64,000 nt of DNA from Devosia sp. Lineage in GTDB: Bacteria; Pseudomonadota; Alphaproteobacteria; Rhizobiales; Devosiaceae. The DNA lies in NCBI GenBank assembly GCA_015234425.1, contig JADGNE010000023.1, positions 1 to 64,000 on the forward strand, written 5' to 3'. The notes under the pieces were generated by a model. It was not told where the DNA came from. It ran no database searches and was given only the letters and a program-made list of their open reading frames with translations. A program made the position numbers and the translations under genes. Positions 28,940 to 41,211 of the stretch are shown here, piece after piece (the first letter of the stretch is position 1; each line of letters starts with the position of its first letter).

Positions 28940-30409
<1,470 letters not shown>

Positions 30410-30434: not shown

Positions 30435-30459
30435 CGCTCCAGTGGAGCGATCTTAGGCT
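30435..30459. repeat. Palindrome flanking the left attachment site
   Basis: CGCTCCAGTGGAGCG (30435-30449) is a near-perfect palindrome directly before the 34-bp repeat. The same 15-mer recurs at 30516-30530 and 39633-39647. The bases between palindrome and 34-mer differ at four places from the right copy. Confidence 0.7.
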
Positions 30460-30493
30460 GTCAGGCCCGAAGAGCTATGCTCGCAGGGCGGGC
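30460..30493. repeat. attL: left 34-bp direct repeat of the mobile element
   Basis: 34 bases starting GTCAGGCCCGAAGAGC and ending CAGGGCGGGC, identical to 39658-39691. The two copies bracket an integrase-bearing gene set and lie in host intergenic DNA at each side. The repeat is not part of a tRNA gene. It contains a small dyad (GAGC-TAT-GCTC). Confidence 0.75.
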
Positions 30494-30515
30494 AATCCGG
30501 CCCTTCGGGCAAATT

Positions 30516-30530
30516 CGCTCCAGTGGAGCG
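30516..30530. repeat. Extra copy of the 15-bp palindrome inside the left end
   Basis: CGCTCCAGTGGAGCG, identical to the palindromes at 30435 and 39633, followed by GAAATAAGG (compare TTAGG at the others). It suggests that the integration site lies in a small repeat cluster. Confidence 0.7.
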
Positions 30531-30549
30531 GAAATAAGGTGTCGATCCC

Positions 30550-30579
30550 TGTAAAAAGTATATTAAATTTCATATACTT
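30550..30579 (-). terminator. AT-rich terminator after the FRG gene
   Basis: On the minus strand AAGTATAT pairs with ATATACTT around an eight-base loop (arms 30572-30579 and 30556-30563), followed by a short U run. It lies about 115 bases past the FRG stop and could end the element's transcript before attL. Confidence 0.5.
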
Positions 30580-30695
30580 AAGTGGGGTCGGCACCAAGCC
30601 GTCAAATAAGCAGAAAATATACGGGCGTACACTTTGTCGGGCAGTGGGCCACAGCACATCTGCCAAATGCCCAGTGGGTTCGCTAGTCGCGCTTT

Positions 30696-31604
30696 TTATA
30701 AAAGACTGATTTCTGATAAATAGTAGTCTATGGCCACCTCTGCGCATGTCCCGTAGTCGGGCATAAGGTGTGCCCGCGTGCGTCGCTCGTGGAACAGCAT
30801 CTTCTTGACCTTGATCCTCTCCTCTTTGTCGAACCTAAGCACGTATCGCCGCACGCAGTGCTCGGGAATAAGTTCGTCGATAGAAGGCATGTGGCCGGTC
30901 AAAATGAAGTTGCTCTCGGCCATATATGTGAAAGAGAACATTCCACTTTGAGAACCAAGTCGGCGGTCGCTTGAGCGAGAAGGTCTGATAAACTGCACTC
31001 GCTCAAATGGCTGCCACTGCCTGAATTCGGCAATGTTAAGTGCCCACACCACTTGCTCTCCGTCTAAAGATTTGTGCAAGGCAAAGTAGAGCGCAGTGAT
31101 GGGATCTCTACTCCAGTCGAGAAGGCGGGTTGGCAGACCATAGTGCTGTCCAAGCACCCAGTGGTCTTGTAACGGATTACCGAGCAGGAGACTGTATTTG
31201 GAGGCGAGTTCCTCAATGTCCTGTGAACGCCGGCCGCCCCCTAGCTCAACGTCCTCAAGTAGCACTCGAAAATTGTCAGCGAGTTCATGCTCTATGAGTA
31301 CGCGGGTGACCGCCTCTTTCAAGCGGGCTCGAACGTCCATGTCACTTAAGTCAAATTGCCACGTCGTACTCGTCTGATGGGTGTCTAGGCCACGTTCTAT
31401 TGCGTGAGTGATTGCAGGCTGAACTCGATATTTTTCGAGGAAGTCAGGTCGCCATACGACAGGCAGGAGGCGCCAATCCGGATCTGACTGACCTCGAAAG
31501 ATCCAAGGGGACTGAAAGGCGTCACCAAACTCCCGATGATTGATGATCCGAAGCCTGCTAAAAGCTTCCTCTGCACTGTGAAGGTAAATAGTCTGGTATG
31601 TCAT
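30696..31604 (-). CDS. FRG-domain protein (probable defence cargo)
   Basis: 302 residues from the ATG at 31604 (MTYQTIYLHSAEEAF); a GTG at 31616 is also in frame. The FRG domain is clear: SPWIFRGQSDPDWRLLPVVWR near residues 32-52, LGQHYGLPTRLLDWSRDPITALYFAL in the middle, RRLGSQSGMFSF and the C-terminal LMPDYGTCAEVA. Its biochemical role is unsettled; FRG genes recur in mobile elements and near defence genes. Base composition is visibly more AT-rich than the host genes and the rest of the element. A role in excluding competing phages is inferred from its cargo position at the element end. Confidence 0.85.
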   Translation of the reverse strand: MTYQTIYLHSAEEAFSRLRIINHREFGDAFQSPWIFRGQSDPDWRLLPVVWRPDFLEKYRVQPAITHAIERGLDTHQTSTTWQFDLSDMDVRARLKEAVTRVLIEHELADNFRVLLEDVELGGGRRSQDIEELASKYSLLLGNPLQDHWVLGQHYGLPTRLLDWSRDPITALYFALHKSLDGEQVVWALNIAEFRQWQPFERVQFIRPSRSSDRRLGSQSGMFSFTYMAESNFILTGHMPSIDELIPEHCVRRYVLRFDKEERIKVKKMLFHERRTRAHLMPDYGTCAEVAIDYYLSEISLL

Positions 31605-31740
31605 AGAGCCAAGCACACCCGATCAGGACGAATATTGGCACAATGAGGGACACAATCGTCCTGCACCAGCCCAGCCAGTTACCACCCCACACAAATGTCG
31701 CCATCAAGCCGGTTCTTATTTTATAGGGTCTATTGGCCAT
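31558..31740 (-). CDS. Possible small membrane protein overlapping the FRG start
   Basis: A 60-residue frame with one hydrophobic segment (TIVSLIVPIFVLIGCAWLY) ending inside the first codons of the FRG gene. A toxin-partner or leader role is conceivable, but the start lacks a clear ribosome binding site and the overlap is about 47 bases. It may be a chance frame. Confidence 0.25.
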   Translation of the reverse strand: MANRPYKIRTGLMATFVWGGNWLGWCRTIVSLIVPIFVLIGCAWLYDIPDYLPSQCRGSF

Positions 31741-31941
31741 CGGATCATGGGTACGCAGCTGACTGCCCTTAATTTGGGCGGTCCTTGCCCTTTGCCCACC
31801 CCCAATGGGCCGCGCTAGCCGGGGTAGCAGCCGCGTTTCAGCGGTTTCGGTAGTTGGGTACGCTGCACGCTGATTCAGGGCACAGCCCGCGTGCAGCGTG
31901 CAGAGGCGGTAGCTCCGTGATCCGCTTCCGCCCTGTTGGTG
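31741..31941. other. Non-coding stretch with inverted repeat
   Basis: Together with the doubtful small frame above, this fills the gap between the FRG gene and the 236-residue gene. CTGCACGCTG (31863-31872) and CAGCGTGCAG (31894-31903) are exact inverted repeats 21 bases apart, located just downstream of the 236-residue gene on its strand. No U run follows, so it may be a weak terminator or a protein-binding site. Confidence 0.5.
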
Positions 31942-32652
31942 TCAGCCCTGCATCGCGGCTTGGAAAGCGGACTCAGCCTGAGTGGCTGCCGCATGACCTT
32001 CTGCCCCCCGTTGCTCGGCGGGCAAGTCGCGAAGCTCCTGAGCGGATTTCACAAAGGCGCTGGAGGCATGTTCGAGGAATGCCATTGCGCGCTCGATGTG
32101 CCCCAGCTCTTGGCGCATCTCGGGAGCCATCTTGTCGATAAAGAGTTCGGTTGAGGTCTTCACGGGCACAGTGAATTTGCCAGTGAGCATCGGACTCGGA
32201 GCGTGCGTGATTGCTGCGATCACCACTCGGTCGCCTGAGTTGATCGCTTCAATCACAGCCGCGTCGCGCGACTTCTGATCCATCCCGCGGAGCGCGAGCC
32301 AAATCGCTTCCGCCTGCGTCGGCAGCTTGTCCACCCCGGCCTTCTTGTAGGCATCAGCGACAATCTTGGCTTCATATGCGGCCACAGCCTCTGCACGCTC
32401 GTTAGCAAGCTTCTGGGCGCGCAGATATGCGGCCTCGAACTTCTGCTGGTAGGCTAGGGCGTTGTTCTCGCGGGTCTTGGTCGGATCCTCATTGGCACGC
32501 ACAGCGGCCAGCCCATCGTAGAGCGATCCCAGGCTGTCGATAGTCGAGAACACATTGTCATAGATCGGCGTAGTGAGGTGATCGAGAGCATTCCGGGCAG
32601 CCTTGCTGCTCAGGGACGGATGCCGAATTGGTGTCTGCTTGGCCATAGCCAT
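31942..32652 (-). CDS. Unknown helical protein downstream of the terminase
   Basis: 236 residues; I do not recognise a family. The sequence is mostly helix-forming, rich in Ala, Glu and Lys (YQQKFEAAYLRAQKLANERAEAVAAYEAKIVADAYKKAG), with a short beta-like middle (DRVVIAAITHAPSPMLTGKFTVPVKT). It begins seven bases past the large terminase start-to-stop unit, so it is in the same operon. In tailed phages this slot holds the portal, but size and sequence do not fit one. A packaging or head-redirecting accessory is a guess. Confidence 0.7.
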   Translation of the reverse strand: MAMAKQTPIRHPSLSSKAARNALDHLTTPIYDNVFSTIDSLGSLYDGLAAVRANEDPTKTRENNALAYQQKFEAAYLRAQKLANERAEAVAAYEAKIVADAYKKAGVDKLPTQAEAIWLALRGMDQKSRDAAVIEAINSGDRVVIAAITHAPSPMLTGKFTVPVKTSTELFIDKMAPEMRQELGHIERAMAFLEHASSAFVKSAQELRDLPAEQRGAEGHAAATQAESAFQAAMQG

Positions 32653-32658
32653 TTCCTT

Positions 32659-34089
32659 TCAATAGAAGTTCGTTTCAACGGCGATTGACTGCGCCCCGGT
32701 GCGCGTTGTGGCTAGATCGATGACCCCGGCTACAGCGTTGGCCAAATCGTCGTGACCATTGGGGGCGTGGTCGATGCTCTCGCGCCCACCGCGTGCAACA
32801 CGGCGCTCAAGGCCCACAAGCTGGTTGACCAATACGTTGCTATCGAGCAGGTCAGCGCGACCCGAATTCAGCACCGGCAACAGGTCTCGGTAGAGATCGG
32901 AGCGCGGCTTTTCGGCAAGCTCGTACATGATCCCGAGCTTGCGGAACTGCTCGCGCGGCCATTCACCGGCATAACGATCGCCGGTCACACTACGGATGCC
33001 GTACAACTTCAGTACCTCGCAGAACTCCTTCACCACGGCCTCGGGCGAAAACGGCGGCTTGCGGTCGCGCACTGCATCAAGGACCACAACGTCCCCTTCG
33101 TTGTGCGCGATGGCGAGGGTCATCGAGTCGTTGCTGCCGCCCGAGGGGTCAACGAAGGCGCGGTACGTCACGCCGTTGCGCCGTGGGCGCTCGAAGATGC
33201 CGGGCGACACACAGGCCTCAACGACTTCCCGAGCAATGAAGTCCTCAATGTCTTTGCGGAACTCTGCGCCGAACTCAGCGGCTGCTGAGGCAGGGTCTTC
33301 CTCGAATGCTTCTGTCAGGAACTCGCCGTCACGCGGAACAGTGGGATTCATGGTCCAGGTCGGAGCCTGCACGACCAGCACACTCCCGGACTTGCCGAAG
33401 TGCTTGCGCCACTTACCGTAGAGCAGTCCCTTCCGAGCATGTGGGCTTGAGATTCCAATGAGCATCGCGCCGGGGATAGTGGCCATGGCTGGCTTCACTG
33501 CGCCGTAAACATCAGTGTCGGGACTGACACTGCCCTCATTGTGCCAGAAGGCGCACTCGTCAAACACTGCGGCGACAACGGTGCGGCCGCGAACACGACG
33601 CTGATCGTTTGTGGTGATTTCGATGCTCAGCCCATTGTTGAGGTCAAGTCCATCAGCAGTGCTCTTGACCACCATGCGGGCAAGAATGGGCTGCTCGAAC
33701 ATCGCCTTGAGATACCCGAGGCAGACCCTCGCTTGATCCCTGTCAACGGCTAGGAGCTGAACAACACCACGCTCGCCGCGCGTAAGTCGTTTCCGATAGC
33801 CATAGATCTCAGCGCCAATGGTCGCGAAGTATGCGACGAGCGAAGCAGCCTTGACGTCCTTGCCGCCGCGCCGCCCGACGACAAACCATGCCTCGGTGGC
33901 GGGCTCAGTGGGTGCCTCGTCGCGACCCGTAATCTCGAGGAACACAGCCAGTTCATCCTCGTCCAGAGGATCGCCGAACAGGGCCTTATCAACGACGCGC
34001 CACGTCCCCCAGGTATCGCCCTTGAACCATGGGCCGAACAGTTCCGGGTCTTTGCAGGCTTCAGCAAAGGTGATGGCGTGGCGTGTCAT
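32659..34089 (-). CDS. Phage terminase large subunit
   Basis: 476 residues with a complete two-domain layout. ATPase: Walker A GRRGGKD (residues 72-78, Asp where Ser/Thr is usual), Walker B plus catalytic Glu VVAAVFDECAFW (D177-E178) and coupling motif GISSP (212-216). Nuclease: AFVDPSGG (D314), VTGDRYAG (D371) and HDDLANAVAG (D447/D448). TerL pumps DNA into procapsids and cuts it. Its ATG follows the stop of the upstream gene directly. It is intact, which argues against a dead remnant. Confidence 0.93.
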   Translation of the reverse strand: MTRHAITFAEACKDPELFGPWFKGDTWGTWRVVDKALFGDPLDEDELAVFLEITGRDEAPTEPATEAWFVVGRRGGKDVKAASLVAYFATIGAEIYGYRKRLTRGERGVVQLLAVDRDQARVCLGYLKAMFEQPILARMVVKSTADGLDLNNGLSIEITTNDQRRVRGRTVVAAVFDECAFWHNEGSVSPDTDVYGAVKPAMATIPGAMLIGISSPHARKGLLYGKWRKHFGKSGSVLVVQAPTWTMNPTVPRDGEFLTEAFEEDPASAAAEFGAEFRKDIEDFIAREVVEACVSPGIFERPRRNGVTYRAFVDPSGGSNDSMTLAIAHNEGDVVVLDAVRDRKPPFSPEAVVKEFCEVLKLYGIRSVTGDRYAGEWPREQFRKLGIMYELAEKPRSDLYRDLLPVLNSGRADLLDSNVLVNQLVGLERRVARGGRESIDHAPNGHDDLANAVAGVIDLATTRTGAQSIAVETNFY

Positions 34090-34503
34090 TTACCGCGCGC
34101 CCCGCTTCGCGTCTGCCCGATACTCCATGTACTGCTCGATGGAGGGCGTAACGTCCTTCGTAGCCCGCTCAAAACCAATGTCCTGAAGAATGCGGCGAAG
34201 GCTGTTGGTGGCGGTAGTCAGTTGACTGATCTCAACATCCTCGCCGTTGGCCAACTTCACCTCGACAGCCTCACACCACACACTGAGGGATGCAGCGCGG
34301 CGGATTAGCTGCTTCTGGGCTTCAGAAGGATCACCGCCCATGTCCGCCGCAAAGGTGGCAAGCAAATCGCGGTACCGGCGGGCAAGTGCGCTGCGCCCAT
34401 CCAGACCTTCCACAAACAAGCGCGTCCCATTGGCGACAGCACTGCGATGGCTCAGCTTTGTATTGACGGTGATAGTGCGATCTGCGGGCAATTGAATCAC
34501 CAA
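34090..34503 (-). CDS. Putative terminase small subunit
   Basis: 137 residues starting at TTG 34503 (or GTG 34500). The sequence (SHRSAVANGTRLFVEGLDGRSALARRYRDLLATFAADMGGDPSEAQKQLIRRAASLSVWCEAVE..., LTTATNSLRRILQDIGFERATKDVTPSIEQYM) is helical and ends immediately before the TerL start. This location is the standard one for TerS, which recognises packaging sites. No clear helix-turn-helix is visible, so the role rests on position. Confidence 0.6.
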   Translation of the reverse strand: MVIQLPADRTITVNTKLSHRSAVANGTRLFVEGLDGRSALARRYRDLLATFAADMGGDPSEAQKQLIRRAASLSVWCEAVEVKLANGEDVEISQLTTATNSLRRILQDIGFERATKDVTPSIEQYMEYRADAKRGAR

Positions 34504-35014
34504 ATGAAGTGCGGATTTACATAGGCTGATATTTTATTGTTATTACACAACTAGCATAAAGCGCGCAAAATCACAAGGAAACACAAGGGTTAGTGCAAAT
34601 CGAATGCCTCTGGTTTACGCTGTAGTTGAGCGTATGACTTGGTCTAAGCGAGGGCTTTGGTGCGGGCAGTGGAAAATGAGCGAATTTTGCCGAGAGGGTT
34701 TGGCATCAATTCCAAGCCCTGTTCTTCGCTACCGTTACGCGGTGGAGATATGTTCCACTGGGTGCTGACGCATCCGGAGCGACTACCCAGAACCCTGACC
34801 AGTGACAAGGGGTACTGTAATGCCACCCCCCTGAAATATGCGGCTAACAGTGCTAACAGTACTAACAGTTAAAATAATGGGGATCCCCCCATTTAGGTAC
34901 TGTAATGACTGTTAGTACTGTAACTGTGTTTTTGTCAGGGGGGCGGCAGTTACAGTGAGCCGGGGGGGGGGGCAACCCTGGAAACCGGGTCGCTCCTTGT
35001 GACCCACTCAACGG
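34504..35014. other. Iteron-rich non-coding region: candidate replication origin / cos-pac region
   Basis: 511 bases without a convincing gene between the replicase and terminase operons. The left part (34504-34560) is AT-rich. The right part holds three tandem 9-mers, GCTAACAGT at 34843 and 34852 and ACTAACAGT at 34861, their inverse ACTGTTAGT at 34908, AGTTACAGT at 34948 with its inverse ACTGTAACT at 34917, and GGTACTGTAATG twice (34811, 34896). An 11-base G run lies at 34962-34972. Such arrays are typical binding sites for satellite or phage replication proteins. Confidence 0.65.
34843..34869. repeat. Three tandem 9-bp iterons
   Basis: GCTAACAGT, GCTAACAGT and ACTAACAGT in direct tandem with no spacer; the inverse ACTGTTAGT follows at 34908-34916. 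They lie about 145 bases downstream of the replicase stop. Confidence 0.8.
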
Positions 35015-37009
35015 TCATTGCGGAACAGGGACGGCCAGTGCTCTATAGATGGTCTTATTGCCACCGCCGGGGTGCAGAGTCACGTCGACTTGGAAGATTT
35101 GCGGCAACTGCCGAAGCTCGCTGTCCACTTTCGTCCACTGTGCGCGGTTGACCTTCTGGTCAGGCAATTGCAATTCAACCTGCTCGCGCGTGATGAACCG
35201 GTCTTGCCCCGAGTGCACCATCTCGACCAGCTTGTCGCGGACAATATCTACCACTGTCTTCCTGGGCGCGCCCGCCCAGCTACTGCCGCCGCCATCGTCA
35301 TCGGGTTTCTTGGTGGCTTTCTCGAACATCTCTAACGATTCAGCATTGCCCCAGACAATCTCCTCGGGCTCGACACGGACCAGCACCGTGTCAGGTCCGT
35401 TCTGGCGCTCGTATAGGGTATGAACCGGGGTTGTCCGGTAGGGTACACCGAAGGGGTCGAAGTTCGTTTTAGCCACCCGCATCACGTAGGCATAATCCTC
35501 GCGGCGGTCAGCAGCGTGCACAAACGACAGGCGCGGCGAGTTGGTCCATGCCGAAGCGCCCATAACCGTGTCCGCGAAGTACTCGTGCTTGCCCTTATTC
35601 GAGTGACCGATGAAGGCGATGGTCAGGTCATGCTGCTCGGCAAGTGCTTGCAGATAGCCCAAAAGCTTCTTCACCGCGGCGTCGTCGTTTGGACTTTCGC
35701 CCTTGCCCCATGCAGTCAGGCCGACAGCAGTGTCTAGGACGACGAGGCGAAGCGGTGGTTTGTTCGCGCCGGTGAAGGCGCCTTTGGCCTGCTCAATAGC
35801 GACTTCTAGATGCTCATATGCGTTGAATGACGATGCAATCACTCTTCCCTGATGATCCATTTCACTAGCAACTGCCTTCACTATGGCGAGCGTACCTTCC
35901 TGGGCTCCACATTTGATATGGCGGACCTTGATCCAATCCGCTGGCTCCTCGACGCTCACCCATAGGGTGGATGCGGTGCCGCTGATCCCCGCCGCCATAC
36001 TGGCTAGGAATGAGGACTTCGCCGTTGAACCTCGTCCGAAGAAGCCGACCACGCACTTGGCAGGCAGGTAAGGGTCGAGGAGATAGTCAACCTTAATGGT
36101 AGCAGTGTCGCTTGCCATGGCGAACTCCAACGTTATGAGGGGCGGGGAAGAAGGTTTGAGTGACGTGGAAGCAAGCTGCGCGGCCTTACTCATAGGGTTG
36201 ACCCATCCACCTTCTTGCGCAGCCTTGAACACTGCTTGATAGCCGGTGCGGTCCGGCTTGAAGCCGTCCCACTGCCGGGCATCTTTCTTAGGCTGGTGCT
36301 CGTCCGAGGTAGCTGACCAGTCAAGCCATAGGCCCCGCCCCACGTCCCCCAGTTCCTTGAGAGCATGACCCATGCGCATCCAAAGATCACGGTCGTCTGA
36401 CCTCATGGACAGGAGCGCCGAGCGCAACTCTGTGACGGTCTTCGCATCGACGGTGACTAGTCCGGCACCGGCATTACTGGTCTTGGTGGACGAACCCGCT
36501 CGCCCAGCGGCATGTCTAGGTGTCAGTACTTGCTCGACATAGTCAGCGAGGTCGACAAGTTCAGCATCTGGCCGGATTCCGTTCTCAGTGACCACGAAGT
36601 AGCGACCCGTCGAGTAAGCCTCGATGCCGCTGCCGTTACTCCCTAGCGGCGCGAAGCGTCTGCCGTATCCAATTGCGTGCGCCCCCTCGCCGCTTACGCT
36701 CTTCTCTACGTACCCGGCCACTTCGTTCGCGAAATGCGCGGTGCCGTTGAGGCGAATTTTGTCGAGGTCGACACCCTGCCAACAATATCCACTCTCAGTC
36801 GGGCCCAACGCGAAGCCGAGGAGCCACCCAGGCCGCGAGGCAAGAGCTGCCTGCGCATCCGCGTAAGTCGCTAGTCGCGCATGGTCCTCCGGACAATCCA
36901 GCGCACCTGACCGCTTCGAGCCGTCGACGTAATGCGGCACCTTATTGGGAGAAGCGATGAGCCATCGCCTTGCGCTAACCATGCACTCAAAGGCAGACAG
37001 CTTAGCCAT
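35015..37009 (-). CDS. Satellite replicase: PrimPol + PriCT-2 + RepA-like helicase
   Basis: 664 residues from the ATG at 37009 (MAKLSAFECMVSARRWLIAS), which has GGAG upstream and overlaps the preceding stop. The N-terminal primase-polymerase domain shows GVDLDKIR (DxD metal site), SGEGAHAIGYG with His, and GIEAYSTGRYFVVTEN. A PriCT-2 segment follows (LLSMRSDDRDLWMRMGHALKEL...FKPDRTGYQAVFKAAQEGGW). The C-terminal half is an AAA/RepA-type ATPase with Walker A FGRGSTAKSS and Walker B LRLVVLDTAVG. Primase and helicase on one chain is the P4-alpha/PICI-like replication strategy. The tail may bind the iterons. Confidence 0.88.
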   Translation of the reverse strand: MAKLSAFECMVSARRWLIASPNKVPHYVDGSKRSGALDCPEDHARLATYADAQAALASRPGWLLGFALGPTESGYCWQGVDLDKIRLNGTAHFANEVAGYVEKSVSGEGAHAIGYGRRFAPLGSNGSGIEAYSTGRYFVVTENGIRPDAELVDLADYVEQVLTPRHAAGRAGSSTKTSNAGAGLVTVDAKTVTELRSALLSMRSDDRDLWMRMGHALKELGDVGRGLWLDWSATSDEHQPKKDARQWDGFKPDRTGYQAVFKAAQEGGWVNPMSKAAQLASTSLKPSSPPLITLEFAMASDTATIKVDYLLDPYLPAKCVVGFFGRGSTAKSSFLASMAAGISGTASTLWVSVEEPADWIKVRHIKCGAQEGTLAIVKAVASEMDHQGRVIASSFNAYEHLEVAIEQAKGAFTGANKPPLRLVVLDTAVGLTAWGKGESPNDDAAVKKLLGYLQALAEQHDLTIAFIGHSNKGKHEYFADTVMGASAWTNSPRLSFVHAADRREDYAYVMRVAKTNFDPFGVPYRTTPVHTLYERQNGPDTVLVRVEPEEIVWGNAESLEMFEKATKKPDDDGGGSSWAGAPRKTVVDIVRDKLVEMVHSGQDRFITREQVELQLPDQKVNRAQWTKVDSELRQLPQIFQVDVTLHPGGGNKTIYRALAVPVPQ

Positions 37010-37466
37010 TCCGCAGTATCTCCGAGTCGTACGCATGGGGCCGGAGCGTCTCGGCTACAGCGAGGCAAAGGGTAAGTAGGCCGGGTACACCCTGGCGCAC
37101 CAAATCAGCGACTGCAGCGGCGGCTATGCGCCGGGCAATCGAAAAGATGGGATCAACGAAACCATCTAGGGTCTCAACTTCCTGAGCGTACTCGGCTGCT
37201 ACCCATTTTAGGCCATCGGCGTCGGATTTTTCCACCGCCCCTACACCGACCAAATAGTCAAGAACGATATGGGAACTGAGCGAATGCTGTTTCACCTCCA
37301 TGACCTTCCTAGGGTCAGCAACTATCTCGGCTGAAATATCAATATTGATTGCAGCAATGTTGAAAGCTACAATGCAGAGGCTCACATGTGAAAGTGGGTG
37401 CTCAATCTTGATCCGGTGCAGCGTGCCCGCGCTGCCCGGATTTTTGCAATATGGATAGAACATCAT
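37002..37466 (-). CDS. Unknown protein of the element's early operon
   Basis: 154 residues, unrecognised. It starts within the stop of the tandem-HTH gene (ATGA overlap) and overlaps the replicase start by eight bases, so the three genes are translationally coupled. The sequence is mildly hydrophobic in the middle (IVAFNIAAINIDISAEIV) and C-terminal parts (AAAAVADLVRQGVPGLLTLCLAVAETL). Its coupling suggests a replication accessory. Confidence 0.75.
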   Translation of the reverse strand: MMFYPYCKNPGSAGTLHRIKIEHPLSHVSLCIVAFNIAAINIDISAEIVADPRKVMEVKQHSLSSHIVLDYLVGVGAVEKSDADGLKWVAAEYAQEVETLDGFVDPIFSIARRIAAAAVADLVRQGVPGLLTLCLAVAETLRPHAYDSEILRNG

Positions 37467-37894
37467 ACAGCCTCACGCACAGGCAAACTCTCCATGAAGT
37501 TCTGGAGATCATCATGGAGGATGATGGTGCGGCGTCCCAACTTGCGCGCGGGCAAGCTGCCGGATTTCATTGCTTTGAAAATGTTTGACCGGCACATACC
37601 TGCCAGCATGGCGGCCTCGTCGGGCGAGTAGCCCATTTTTTGAGCCACTGATCCTTCCATGAGGTGCTCAGCAACGCTTGGCACTTGTGCGGTGGACTGC
37701 TCGCGCAACCAATCTTCGAGGTCAGGCCGATAGTAGCGGACCGCTGAGCCTCGACCGCCCAAACGAATGTACGGGGGGCCTTTGCCCTCGCTCCGCTGGG
37801 TTTCGAGCGTGTTTGGCTTGACGCGAAGAAGCAGAGCCGCTTCCCGAGTGGTTAGCAGGTCAGCTAGATTTATAGATGCGACGGAGGGGGGCAT
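37463..37894 (-). CDS. Tandem helix-turn-helix (AlpA/excisionase-type) regulator
   Basis: 143 residues containing two HTH_17-like winged helices in one chain: LLTTREAALLLRVKPNTLETQRSEGKGPPYIRLG...RYYRPDLEDWL (about residues 13-65) and MGYSPDEAAMLAGMCRSNIFKAMKSGSLPARKLGRRTIILHDDLQNFM (about 92-138). Single-domain relatives (AlpA, Xis) control integrase expression and excision. Two fused domains could bridge two DNA sites. The promoter region upstream carries two inverted repeats. First gene of the replication operon. Confidence 0.85.
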   Translation of the reverse strand: MPPSVASINLADLLTTREAALLLRVKPNTLETQRSEGKGPPYIRLGGRGSAVRYYRPDLEDWLREQSTAQVPSVAEHLMEGSVAQKMGYSPDEAAMLAGMCRSNIFKAMKSGSLPARKLGRRTIILHDDLQNFMESLPVREAV

Positions 37895-38117
37895 ACGTGA
37901 AACTTCCGCAAGGGGTGGCTCGCCGGCGTTCTTGACCCGAACATGGCGTTTAAGCGGGAAGTTTCAGCAGCCTTACTTAAGCTGCCGGGGTTTAGCTGCT
38001 GTTACCTTACACACTAACTTTGGCAGCGCAAGCGAAAATAGCTGCTATGTACTGGACGATTGTGTTTTCAGCCCAGTACATCTGAATAGTGGGAAAACAT
38101 CTGTCAGTGAACGGGTG
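37895..38117. promoter_or_regulatory. Control region with two dyads between integrase and tandem-HTH gene
   Basis: TGAAACTTCC (37898-37907) and GGAAGTTTCA (37957-37966) are exact inverted repeats flanking the likely promoter of the HTH gene. A second exact dyad, ATGTACTGG (38047-38055) and CCAGTACAT (38073-38081), lies near the integrase 3' end. These are probable operators for the tandem-HTH protein or a host repressor; the second could also terminate the integrase transcript. Confidence 0.55.
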
Positions 38118-39470
38118 TTAGTTAAACTTGATGATCTTCGCGCCTTCTGTCTGCGGAACCAGCGGTCGGACGGCAGCGCGTGCGATTTCCTCAAGCCCGT
38201 CTACGATCCACCGGCTATAGTGCTTCTCGATTTGCACAACCGATGTGTCATGGAGTGCAGCCACAAGACGGATCGGCTGGTTTGCTCGAATGCCATTCAC
38301 GATTGATGTGTGGCGGAGGGCATAGGGGATTACTTTCGGCAAGCCGGCTCTTGCAGTGATCTGCTGCCAGCTCTTGTCCAACGCTGCCGCCGACTGCCAC
38401 CGCCCGCGCTCAGACCTTACCCAAGCCCTTCCACCGGGGGCTTGAGCATGCCGCCAGCGTTCGAGCAGTGGCTCGTACGGGTCGCGCCCTTGCGTCACTG
38501 GAACCAGTTCGTCGAGTACGTCTTGGCCCACAGGTATCTTGAGGGAATCCGACTTGTCACCCTGTCCCTTCCGGCTGCGCGGCACGATTAGCCGCCCCTC
38601 TTTACGCTGGCAGTCCTTCACCTGCATGCGGGCGACCTGAGAGAAGCGCGCGCCGGTTGCCGTCAGCACCAGCACCATGCGGTAGAGGTCGCCCTCCCAA
38701 TACTGCTCTGCGTCGATCTCACGCGCTGCCTTCAACAAACGAGCCACGTCTGCATCTGCCAGTATCTGGTTTTCACGTGCTGCGGGCTCCCGATGATCAC
38801 CCAGGTGCTCAAACCGGATACCCCGCTTGATTATGTCTGGCAGGCGCGGATTTAAGCGCTCCCGATTTGCGTCATAAGCACTATTCAGCGCTGCCTTGAG
38901 GTCGCTACCGAGACGCAGAAGTGTGGCGTGCTTCAGGTTGTTGGGTAGACCTGCACACCATGCCCGAAGGTCGGGCTCCGTGAGCCTGTGCAGGGGAATG
39001 GCAGCCAACGGCGACGGTGCTACAGCAGCCTTCTTGCTGCTAGCGGGCGCGCCAAGCACATATCTCCTTAGTCGGCTGCTGGCATCGCTGCGCACCGAGC
39101 GACCGGCCCACTTGCTATCTCGGTTGTCGCGCATGGCAATGTACTGCTCGACCGCCGACTGGACGGTAAGGATCGGGCCATCGGCGAGAGCCTTTGCGTC
39201 CAACCGTTCCCGTTGAACGGTCTCGCGACCCGCCTTGGTCGCTGCCTGAAAGTCCAGCGTCCCAACAGCGATTTCGTCGTCTGCTGTGCCAAGCTTCATC
39301 TGCTTGTAGCCAACGCCATTGCGCCACCGGACTAGCCACACACCGCCCCGAGCCCCCTTGCGGTAGCCAAGGTGAACTTCCGGGTCGATACCGCGCCAAT
39401 GAATGCCCTGCGGCAGTTCCTTGCGCGCATTCCGGGTAGTGATGGGCGCTTCTTTGAGGGTCTTGGCCAT
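38118..39470 (-). CDS. int: Tyrosine recombinase / integrase
   Basis: 450 residues from the ATG at 39470 (MAKTLKEAPITTRNARKELPQGIHWRG); an ATG at 39503 adds 11. An arm-binding N-terminal part (VWLVRWRNGVGYKQMKLGTADD) and a core-binding domain precede the catalytic domain: Arg in LTATGARFSQVARM, Lys near PRSRKGQGDKSDS, YALRHTS (HxxR motif with Tyr in the first place), His in AALHDTS and Tyr in QIEKHYSRW. It drives integration between the 34-bp repeats. It lies just inside the right end, reading inward. Confidence 0.93.
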   Translation of the reverse strand: MAKTLKEAPITTRNARKELPQGIHWRGIDPEVHLGYRKGARGGVWLVRWRNGVGYKQMKLGTADDEIAVGTLDFQAATKAGRETVQRERLDAKALADGPILTVQSAVEQYIAMRDNRDSKWAGRSVRSDASSRLRRYVLGAPASSKKAAVAPSPLAAIPLHRLTEPDLRAWCAGLPNNLKHATLLRLGSDLKAALNSAYDANRERLNPRLPDIIKRGIRFEHLGDHREPAARENQILADADVARLLKAAREIDAEQYWEGDLYRMVLVLTATGARFSQVARMQVKDCQRKEGRLIVPRSRKGQGDKSDSLKIPVGQDVLDELVPVTQGRDPYEPLLERWRHAQAPGGRAWVRSERGRWQSAAALDKSWQQITARAGLPKVIPYALRHTSIVNGIRANQPIRLVAALHDTSVVQIEKHYSRWIVDGLEEIARAAVRPLVPQTEGAKIIKFN

Positions 39471-39632
39471 GGCTCGCTTTCTAAGCTGCAAAATATGCGT
39501 CAAATATGCGAGCTTGCACTTTGGTGCACAAGGACGGCCGCCGGAAAAGCAAAATCTTTTTATTTCAGTGAGTTAGATGTACGTTGGTGCACGAAGTGGC
39601 CCAGCAAAATCACCCGGCGAACCGCTCATAAA
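39471..39632. promoter_or_regulatory. Integrase upstream region with paired direct repeats
   Basis: AAATATGCG occurs at 39491-39499 and 39502-39510 (11-base period) and TTGGTGCAC at 39521-39529 and 39584-39592. Pairs of short direct repeats between an integrase start and its attachment site resemble arm-type integrase or Xis sites. A related inverted GGCACCAA lies in the left end at 30590-30597. Confidence 0.45.
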
Positions 39633-39657
39633 CGCTCCAGTGGAGCGAATTTAGGTC
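39633..39657. repeat. Palindrome flanking the right attachment site
   Basis: CGCTCCAGTGGAGCG (39633-39647) followed by AATTTAGGTC, aligning without gaps with the left copy at 30435 apart from four substitutions. Confidence 0.7.
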
Positions 39658-39691
39658 GTCAGGCCCGAAGAGCTATGCTCGCAGGGCGGGC
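39658..39691. repeat. attR: right 34-bp direct repeat of the mobile element
   Basis: Identical over 34 bases to 30460-30493. It lies 188 bases outside the integrase start and about 200 bases before rarA. Confidence 0.75.
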
Positions 39692-39894: not shown

Positions 39895-41211
39895 ATGTCC
39901 GATCTCTTTTCTGCCGATCCCCAAGAAACCGACAAGGCCCGCCCGCTGGCCGACCAGCTGCGGCCGCGCACGCTGGACGAAGTCATTGGCCAGGAGCATC
40001 TGCTTGGCCCCAGTGGCACGCTGCGCCGCATGCTGTCGTCCGGCCGTCTGGGCTCGCTGATCCTCTGGGGCCCGCCCGGCACCGGCAAGACCACTGTCGC
40101 GCGGCTCCTCGCCGATCAGATCGGCTTCAAGTTCGAACAGATCTCTGCCATCTTCTCGGGCGTTGCCGACCTCAAGAAGGTTTTCGAGAAAGCGCGCTTC
40201 GAACGCCTCTCGGGCCACCGCACGCTGCTCTTCGTGGATGAGATCCATCGCTTCAATCGCGCCCAGCTCGACAGTTTCCTGCCCGTCATGGAAGACGGCA
40301 CCATCGTCCTCGTGGGCGCCACCACGGAAAACCCGTCCTTTGAGCTCAACGCCGCCATGCTCTCGCGCGCCCAGGTGCTGCGATTCCAGTCGCTTGGGCC
40401 GGAGGATCTCGAAAAGCTGATCGGCCGCGCCGAAACCCTGCTCGGGCAGACCCTGCCGCTCACCGAGGACGCCCGCCAGACCCTGCTCGGTCTCGCTGAT
40501 GGCGATGGTCGCGCGATGCTCGGGCTCGTCGAGGAAATCCTCGCCTCTGTTTCGCAGGACGAGACGCTCGATGCTAACAGTCTGCTAACAATAGTGCAGC
40601 GCAGGGCACCGATTTACGACAAGGCGCAGGACGGCCATTACAATCTGATTTCGGCCCTGCACAAGACCATCCGCGGCTCCGATCCCGATGCCGCGCTCTA
40701 CTATTTTGCCCGCATGCTCGATGCCGGCGAGGATCCGCTTTTCCTCGCTAGGCGCTTGATCCGTATGGCTTCTGAAGACATTGGCTTGGCTGACCCGCAG
40801 GCGCTGCAGCTGGCGATCGCCGGTCGCGACGCCTATCAGATGCTCGGCTCCCCCGAGGGCGAGCTGTCCCTTGCGCAGGTCGTCGTCTACCTTGCGCTCG
40901 CACCCAAGTCGAACGCGGTCTACACCGCCTACAAGGCTGCGGTTTCCCTTGCGAAATCAACGGGTTCGCCGATGCCGCCAATGGTCATTCTCAACGCCCC
41001 GACCAAGCTGATGAAGGGCGAAGGCTATGGCGGCGGCTACATCTATGACCACGACACGCCCGAAGCCTTCTCCGGTCAGGAATATTTCCCAGAAAAGCTC
41101 GGCCGGCAGAATTTCTATCAGCCCGTGGAGCGGGGCTTCGAGCGCGACCTGCGCAAGCGCATGGACTATTTCGCCCGACTTCGTGCTGAGAAATCAAAGC
41201 CGAGGGACTAG
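39895..41211 (+). CDS. rarA: Replication-associated recombination protein A (MgsA/RarA)
   Basis: 438 residues. N-terminal [22 protein letters not shown], Walker [11 protein letters not shown] (about residues 58-67), Walker [12 protein letters not shown], sensor region [15 protein letters not shown] and the C-terminal MgsA domain ([24 protein letters not shown]). RarA is a clamp-loader-like ATPase acting at stalled replication forks. Starts at ATG 39895 after the att region. Confidence 0.97.

Follow-up and report, generated by a model that had tools for sequence, protein, structure and literature searches.

A 9.2-kb element of Devosia with its own terminase genes and no recognised head genes is probably a phage satellite

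Phage satellites of the P4 type carry an integrase, an AlpA-like regulator and a primase-helicase, and borrow the shell of a helper phage. P4 relies on the P2 terminase for DNA packaging, and PICIs have a TerS or TerS-binding protein of their own, or work through cos sites (excerpts of PMC10690885). The cf-PICIs encode TerS and TerL together with the portal, major capsid, protease and connectors, and take only the tails from a helper (PMC10690885, in part); some carry putative tape measure genes (PMC12987554, in part). The Streptomyces satellites MulchRoom and MiniFlayer encode TerS and TerL plus portal, major capsid and scaffold, with no obvious replicase in the excerpts of PMC10690885 that describe them. 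The tape measure of the Vibrio cholerae satellite PLE replaces that of the helper, giving chimeric tails (excerpts of PMC12987554), and PICMI115 has no terS, sid or ppi homologue in the excerpts of PMC10803314. The literature consulted also includes PMC4936722, PMC11389934 and PMC10187409.

The element described here occupies positions 30460-39691 (~9.2 kb) of the window, the whole 64,000-nucleotide stretch of a Devosia sp. contig that was analysed. It consists of eight genes, all on the minus strand and all with open reading frames. The features of the element and its flanks are as follows.

28940..30409, plus strand: flanking DegP-like protease gene, outside the element; named from a reading of the protein
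30435..30459, plus strand: imperfect repeat extension with a 15-bp palindrome; counterpart at 39633-39657
30460..30493, plus strand: 34-bp direct repeat at one end, attachment-site candidate
30696..31616, minus strand: FRG-domain gene, GTG start, probable defence cargo (Pfam FRG, PADLOC PDC-S15)
31942..32652, minus strand: gene X, 236 aa, helical; found again after TerL in relatives
32659..34089, minus strand: TerL, large terminase
34090..34503, minus strand: small terminase (TerS) candidate, listed with a TTG start; assigned by position and structure model
34811..34956, no strand: iteron-like array and inverted repeats, origin candidate
35015..37036, minus strand: replicase with a primase-like N-terminal part, PriCT_2 and AAA_25
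37002..37466, minus strand: 154-aa ORF without family assignment
37463..37894, minus strand: regulator with two HTH domains (HTH_17, AlpA/excisionase-like)
38118..39503, minus strand: tyrosine integrase, listed with a TTG start; a start further in is favoured by the gene caller
39658..39691, plus strand: 34-bp direct repeat at the other end
39895..41211, plus strand: flanking rarA, outside the element; named in the initial annotation and from a reading of the protein

The ends are well defined. With up to three mismatches allowed, the 34-bp repeat has only two copies in the 3,978,489-base genome; it is part of a 59-nt repeat with 93% identity between the copies. The insertion place lies between the protease gene, which ends at 30409, and rarA, which begins at 39895. 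The GC content in 2-kb windows is 56-60.5% inside the element and 61-63% in the adjoining DNA, though the first part of the window, distant from the element, also goes down to 57%. The rarA neighbourhoods of 19 of 30 relatives (17 congeneric and 2 of the same order) were compared. The protease gene and rarA are adjacent, -7 to 781 bases apart, and the site is element-free in 18 of them; in the remaining one there was no protease match within the 3 kb taken at rarA. The spacer in these relatives is too diverged to display the uninterrupted attachment site base for base. A TerL of this kind was found in none of 100 close relatives searched. The initial annotation had described a mobile element of intact single-strand genes between identical repeats, and these results bear it out: the empty sites that it proposed to look for, protease gene joined to rarA, exist, and the capsid and portal genes whose presence at this locus in close relatives it would have taken as a sign of decay were looked for and not found, the relatives reading there without the element. 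From the sequence, we infer that the element can be excised. The 15-bp palindrome CGCTCCAGTGGAGCG is present at both ends (30435-30449, 30516-30530, 39633-39647) and has seven copies in the genome.

The integrase, the regulator and the replicase beside an iteron-like array make up the satellite-like gene set that had been claimed for the locus. The 511-bp gap between the replicase and TerS contains three tandem 9-mers (GCTAACAGT, one starting with A) plus inverted copies, and a 23-nt inverted repeat with 83% complementarity. Four of the five occurrences of ACTGTTAG in the window fall in this gap (0.29 expected). This is where an origin would be expected, and the array is a candidate for it. 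No portal, capsid or tail gene was recognised among the eight proteins by Pfam, PHROG and PADLOC scans. The element thus has the general make-up of a satellite: small and integrated, with integrase, regulator and replication gene, and without a full set of virion genes.

The terminase genes set it apart from P4-like satellites and PICIs. The TerL retains the ATPase and nuclease residues conserved across 11 TerLs. In comparison with five relatives, substitutions amount to 0.52-0.63 per codon at the third codon position versus 0.19-0.29 at the first two; because changes concentrate at third positions, the gene is under selection. The TerS candidate has no sequence-family match. With these motifs intact and no portal, capsid or tail match in the element, the proposed full TerL without recognised head genes stands. 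Like P4, the element combines integrase, AlpA-like regulator, primase-helicase and a presumably borrowed shell, but it carries both terminase genes; P4-like sid, psu and delta have no Pfam or PHROG match in the window, a result that depends on whether models for each of these genes exist and leaves three window proteins without assignment. It shares with SaPIs and other PICIs the integrase, regulator, replication gene and redirected packaging, but these, as we read them, rely on the helper TerL, whereas the window TerL is the element's own, with conserved motifs. It resembles the PICMIs in its very small size, its integration and replication genes and its lack of recognised capsid genes, but those insert next to fis and not at a protease gene/rarA site. 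The cf-PICIs are likewise integrated and encode TerS and TerL (in the window, TerS by position and model), yet their portal, major capsid, protease and connectors are unmatched among the eight proteins. MulchRoom and MiniFlayer also have TerS and TerL within a satellite, but their portal, capsid and scaffold are not recognised here, and the window element has a replicase. Set beside PLE by description and not by sequence, tape-measure-bearing relatives of the element may act in the same way, although the window element itself has no tape measure. Taken together, the element is probably a phage satellite with its own motor and a borrowed shell, in which excision, packaging and helper are deduced from gene content.

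The design had been thought uncommon, but it recurs widely. Relatives of the TerL were found in 12 of 397 genomes of the order (its own included, one weak), at 248 places in GTDB genomes (from 355 pattern matches), at 78 loci in viral contigs and in 5 plasmid records. The best 80 of the 248 are mostly from Alphaproteobacteria, with others from Halomonas, Thiomicrospira, Nitrospira and Acidobacteria; the Gammaproteobacteria are thus included. Environmental bacteria with such an element include Sphingobium ummariense RL-3, Sphingomonas aracearum and Hyphomicrobium sp. D-2. The design also occurs in two circular metagenome contigs. Among phage records, 150 of 50,697 match, all at less than 60% identity; the best-ranked match has 25.6% identity over 79% of the protein, and some shorter ones reach up to 31.8%. 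The suggested search for similar gene sets elsewhere was therefore productive: the gene order is common to elements of distant families. Genes were called on 175 loci with our own script and clustered (starts are approximate, and the script cut short the window FRG and regulator genes), giving TerL in 167 loci, TerS in 113, integrase in 92 and X in 33.

A repeat of at least 18 bases surrounds TerL in 43 loci, including two contigs with their own ends repeated. Twelve loci were scanned for tRNAs, and in 5 of them the repeat and a tRNA gene coincide; many other repeats read like tRNA ends. From the 43, a table of 33 elements (7.9-18.3 kb) was picked by hand: 31 integrated elements and the circular contigs L119 and L120. 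Left out were two plasmids, one duplicate and seven loci (L059, L074, L090, L091, L112, L156, L167) with repeats that are short or enclose no recognised integrase; the selection is not fully even, L036, L038 and L046 having been kept with repeats of 18-27 bases. All 33 have integrase and TerL, 30 have TerS, 15 an HTH gene and 14 X. The virion genes are a tape measure in 13 (clusters 11, 26 and 59 plus one PHROG match; one cluster 59 member matches at 1.6e-10, another has no match), a head protease in 8, a major capsid gene in 4 and a fibre-like gene ("tail fibre" being the PHROGs label) in 2. A tape measure, capsid or fibre-like gene is present in 18, and 10 have none of the listed extra virion genes. 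The two circular metagenome contigs (9.7 and 9.3 kb) read Int-TerS-TerL-X-tape measure, with no other recognised virion gene. In several elements a DUF2213-type protease is followed by a 260-291-aa gene without assignment (cluster 31, e.g. L045:11826-12668, L022:11467-12342).

No portal was recognised in any of the 33 elements with models from two of our own clusters and a PHROG scan. A wider PHROG scan covered 101 of the 116 unclassified proteins of at least 150 aa (14 X proteins and one known tape measure were excluded). Among the matches listed (25 of 91 families) there was no portal or major head protein, and there were two "tail completion or Neck1" families with 2 members each. Since the check consists of two cluster-derived models and these listed matches, an unusual portal could be missed. 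Of the ten loci left out of the table, L156 carries a portal and the other nine have no portal cluster.

These relatives bear on whether the locus is instead a decayed prophage, or a decayed capsid-forming satellite, that lost its head and tail genes and is now stuck. Some TerL relatives do lie in portal-bearing contigs, broken relatives exist (TerL is in pieces in L028 and in a Roseomonas plasmid), and no head or tail gene remains in the window element. Yet its eight genes are open, its repeats are exact, its gene order is shared by elements of distant families, and its TerL codons have a purifying pattern; no structural remnant was matched within the ORFs. Moreover, 33 bounded or circular relatives of 7.9-18.3 kb lack a recognised portal, and independent decay to the same core is unlikely because it would have to recur many times. 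Decay is thus an unlikely explanation.

A second alternative is an integrative element or plasmid-like replicon whose TerS-TerL serves something other than packaging, or which is never packaged. Relatives do exist as plasmids, with a recombinase/resolvase-family gene before TerS, and the two circular contigs could be plasmids. However, the tape measure, major capsid or fibre-like genes of 18 of the 33 elements are hard to explain without particle assembly, and this alternative appears improbable, somewhat more so than decay. The small Roseomonas plasmid L033 (NZ_CP024585.1, 9720 bp) combines a TerS match and a TerL spread over two ORFs with a primase-like gene and a recombinase. The Komagataeibacter plasmid L032 (NZ_CP019881.1, 25766 bp) has the terminase region twice, with one TerL in pieces, and also repeats a stretch of about 2.9 kb. 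In the 58-kb Methylobacterium plasmid L031 (NZ_CP121649.1), TerS-TerL-X, all three annotated as hypothetical, follow a recombinase-family gene and a P4-type primase.

A quick method, with SH-aLRT as the only support, gave a tree of 152 TerLs; its labels count genes within 9 kb, so that a few may fall outside the element, as the capsid-like gene of L071 does. The window TerL belongs to a fully supported set of ten, 64-72% identical to it. Within this set, L040, L019 and L038 have a tape measure, L035, L036 and L115 a fibre-like gene, and L116 and L117 a protease, a capsid gene and a tape measure; L039 and the window element have no recognised virion part. Since the terminases are alike and their neighbours are not, the virion part differs beside similar terminases. 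In the window element the FRG gene, of a PADLOC candidate defence family and probably directed against competing phages, stands after X, where many relatives hold a virion part. A portal follows TerL in 20 of the 152, all in uncultivated contigs (18 without an integrase within 9 kb), so the TerL family is not restricted to satellites. The portal label changes at least five times on well-supported branches, a pattern that suggests repeated passage of the motor between phages and satellites. Several of the viral contigs L137-L166 are phage-like, with a TerL 44-48% identical to that of the window and then a portal; these portal-bearing contigs are a possible source or helper lineage of the motor.

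Gene X recurs with the terminase. Its structure model is confident (pLDDT 93.4) and all helical, with no meaningful fold match in structure comparison. In 31 of the 33 gene-called loci that have it, X is the first or second gene after TerL. A profile search found 20 places in 18 of the 397 genomes of the order, ten of them, in nine regions, away from a TerL of the window type. Among these ten, X directly follows a terminase of another kind (PHROGs) in three cases (L266 once, L270 twice), and is preceded by a TerS match with no recognised TerL in L267 and by the replicase in L265. Because it also follows other terminases, X accompanies packaging genes of more than one kind, and it may be an adaptor between motor and shell or a factor for shell size. 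In L270 (G442:C24) the two copies of X are on opposite strands of one 20-kb stretch, each after a terminase not of the window type.

The helper prophage that the initial annotation expected in the same genome did not turn up. In the draft of 74 contigs, two of the three portal/capsid Pfam families tried gave one match each, in the same cluster, and the third none. This cluster (G000:C71, locus L244 2915-16576) holds TerL, portal, capsid, DUF2460, NlpC/P60 and GTA_TIM (7.5e-132) and is a gene transfer agent. That the element is carried by this host agent and not by a phage would agree with its cluster being the only place of a portal and capsid found with these families. The agent, however, has its own TerL, which is barely similar to the window TerL (26% over 127 aa). 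Gene transfer agent particles hold only a few kilobases, less than the 9.2 kb of the element, and carriage by this agent is highly improbable.

If the element is a satellite, its cycle would be triggered by infection with a tailed phage or by prophage induction. The regulator and integrase would excise the element and the replicase would amplify it from the array at 34811-34956. The satellite TerS would mark the satellite DNA; the satellite TerL would dock on the helper portal and fill helper procapsids, making the helper terminase unnecessary. X may couple the foreign motor to the helper procapsid or influence procapsid size, the weakest step of the model. Because 9.2 kb is below the usual capsid capacity, the DNA would perhaps be packaged as concatemers or into small heads. 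Related elements carry a further virion part, most commonly a tape measure, where the window element has its FRG gene.

More broadly, the relatives plausibly form a widespread satellite family, with a fixed, portable motor core (TerS-TerL, often X) and an exchangeable next slot for a tape measure, capsid, fibre-like, protease or defence gene. Docking would then take place on a portal with which the motor has no shared evolution, so the portal-motor contact must be tolerant; virion parts would be swapped singly, and the window element would be the motor-only form with defence cargo. The map legend of mobile elements with primases in PMC5862659 names TerS, TerL, TMP and MCP; going by this legend, parts of such loci had already been mapped. 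No description of capsid-less satellites with both terminase subunits was found in the open-licence literature by title and abstract start. With its constant motor and variable virion part, the family appears to be a new satellite variant but no new kind of element; it may overlap with the VEIMEs, which are reportedly integrative-element DNA found inside marine virions.

Detection of satellites by marker genes, or calling every TerL locus a prophage, would probably misfile such elements. Known satellites either build a complete capsid or redirect packaging by means of a TerS or small helper proteins; a motor-only satellite, if true, would stand in between, and the specificity of the portal-terminase contact would become directly testable. 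The relatives, with varied virion parts beside a conserved terminase, are a natural series from which one could learn which phage parts are replaceable singly.
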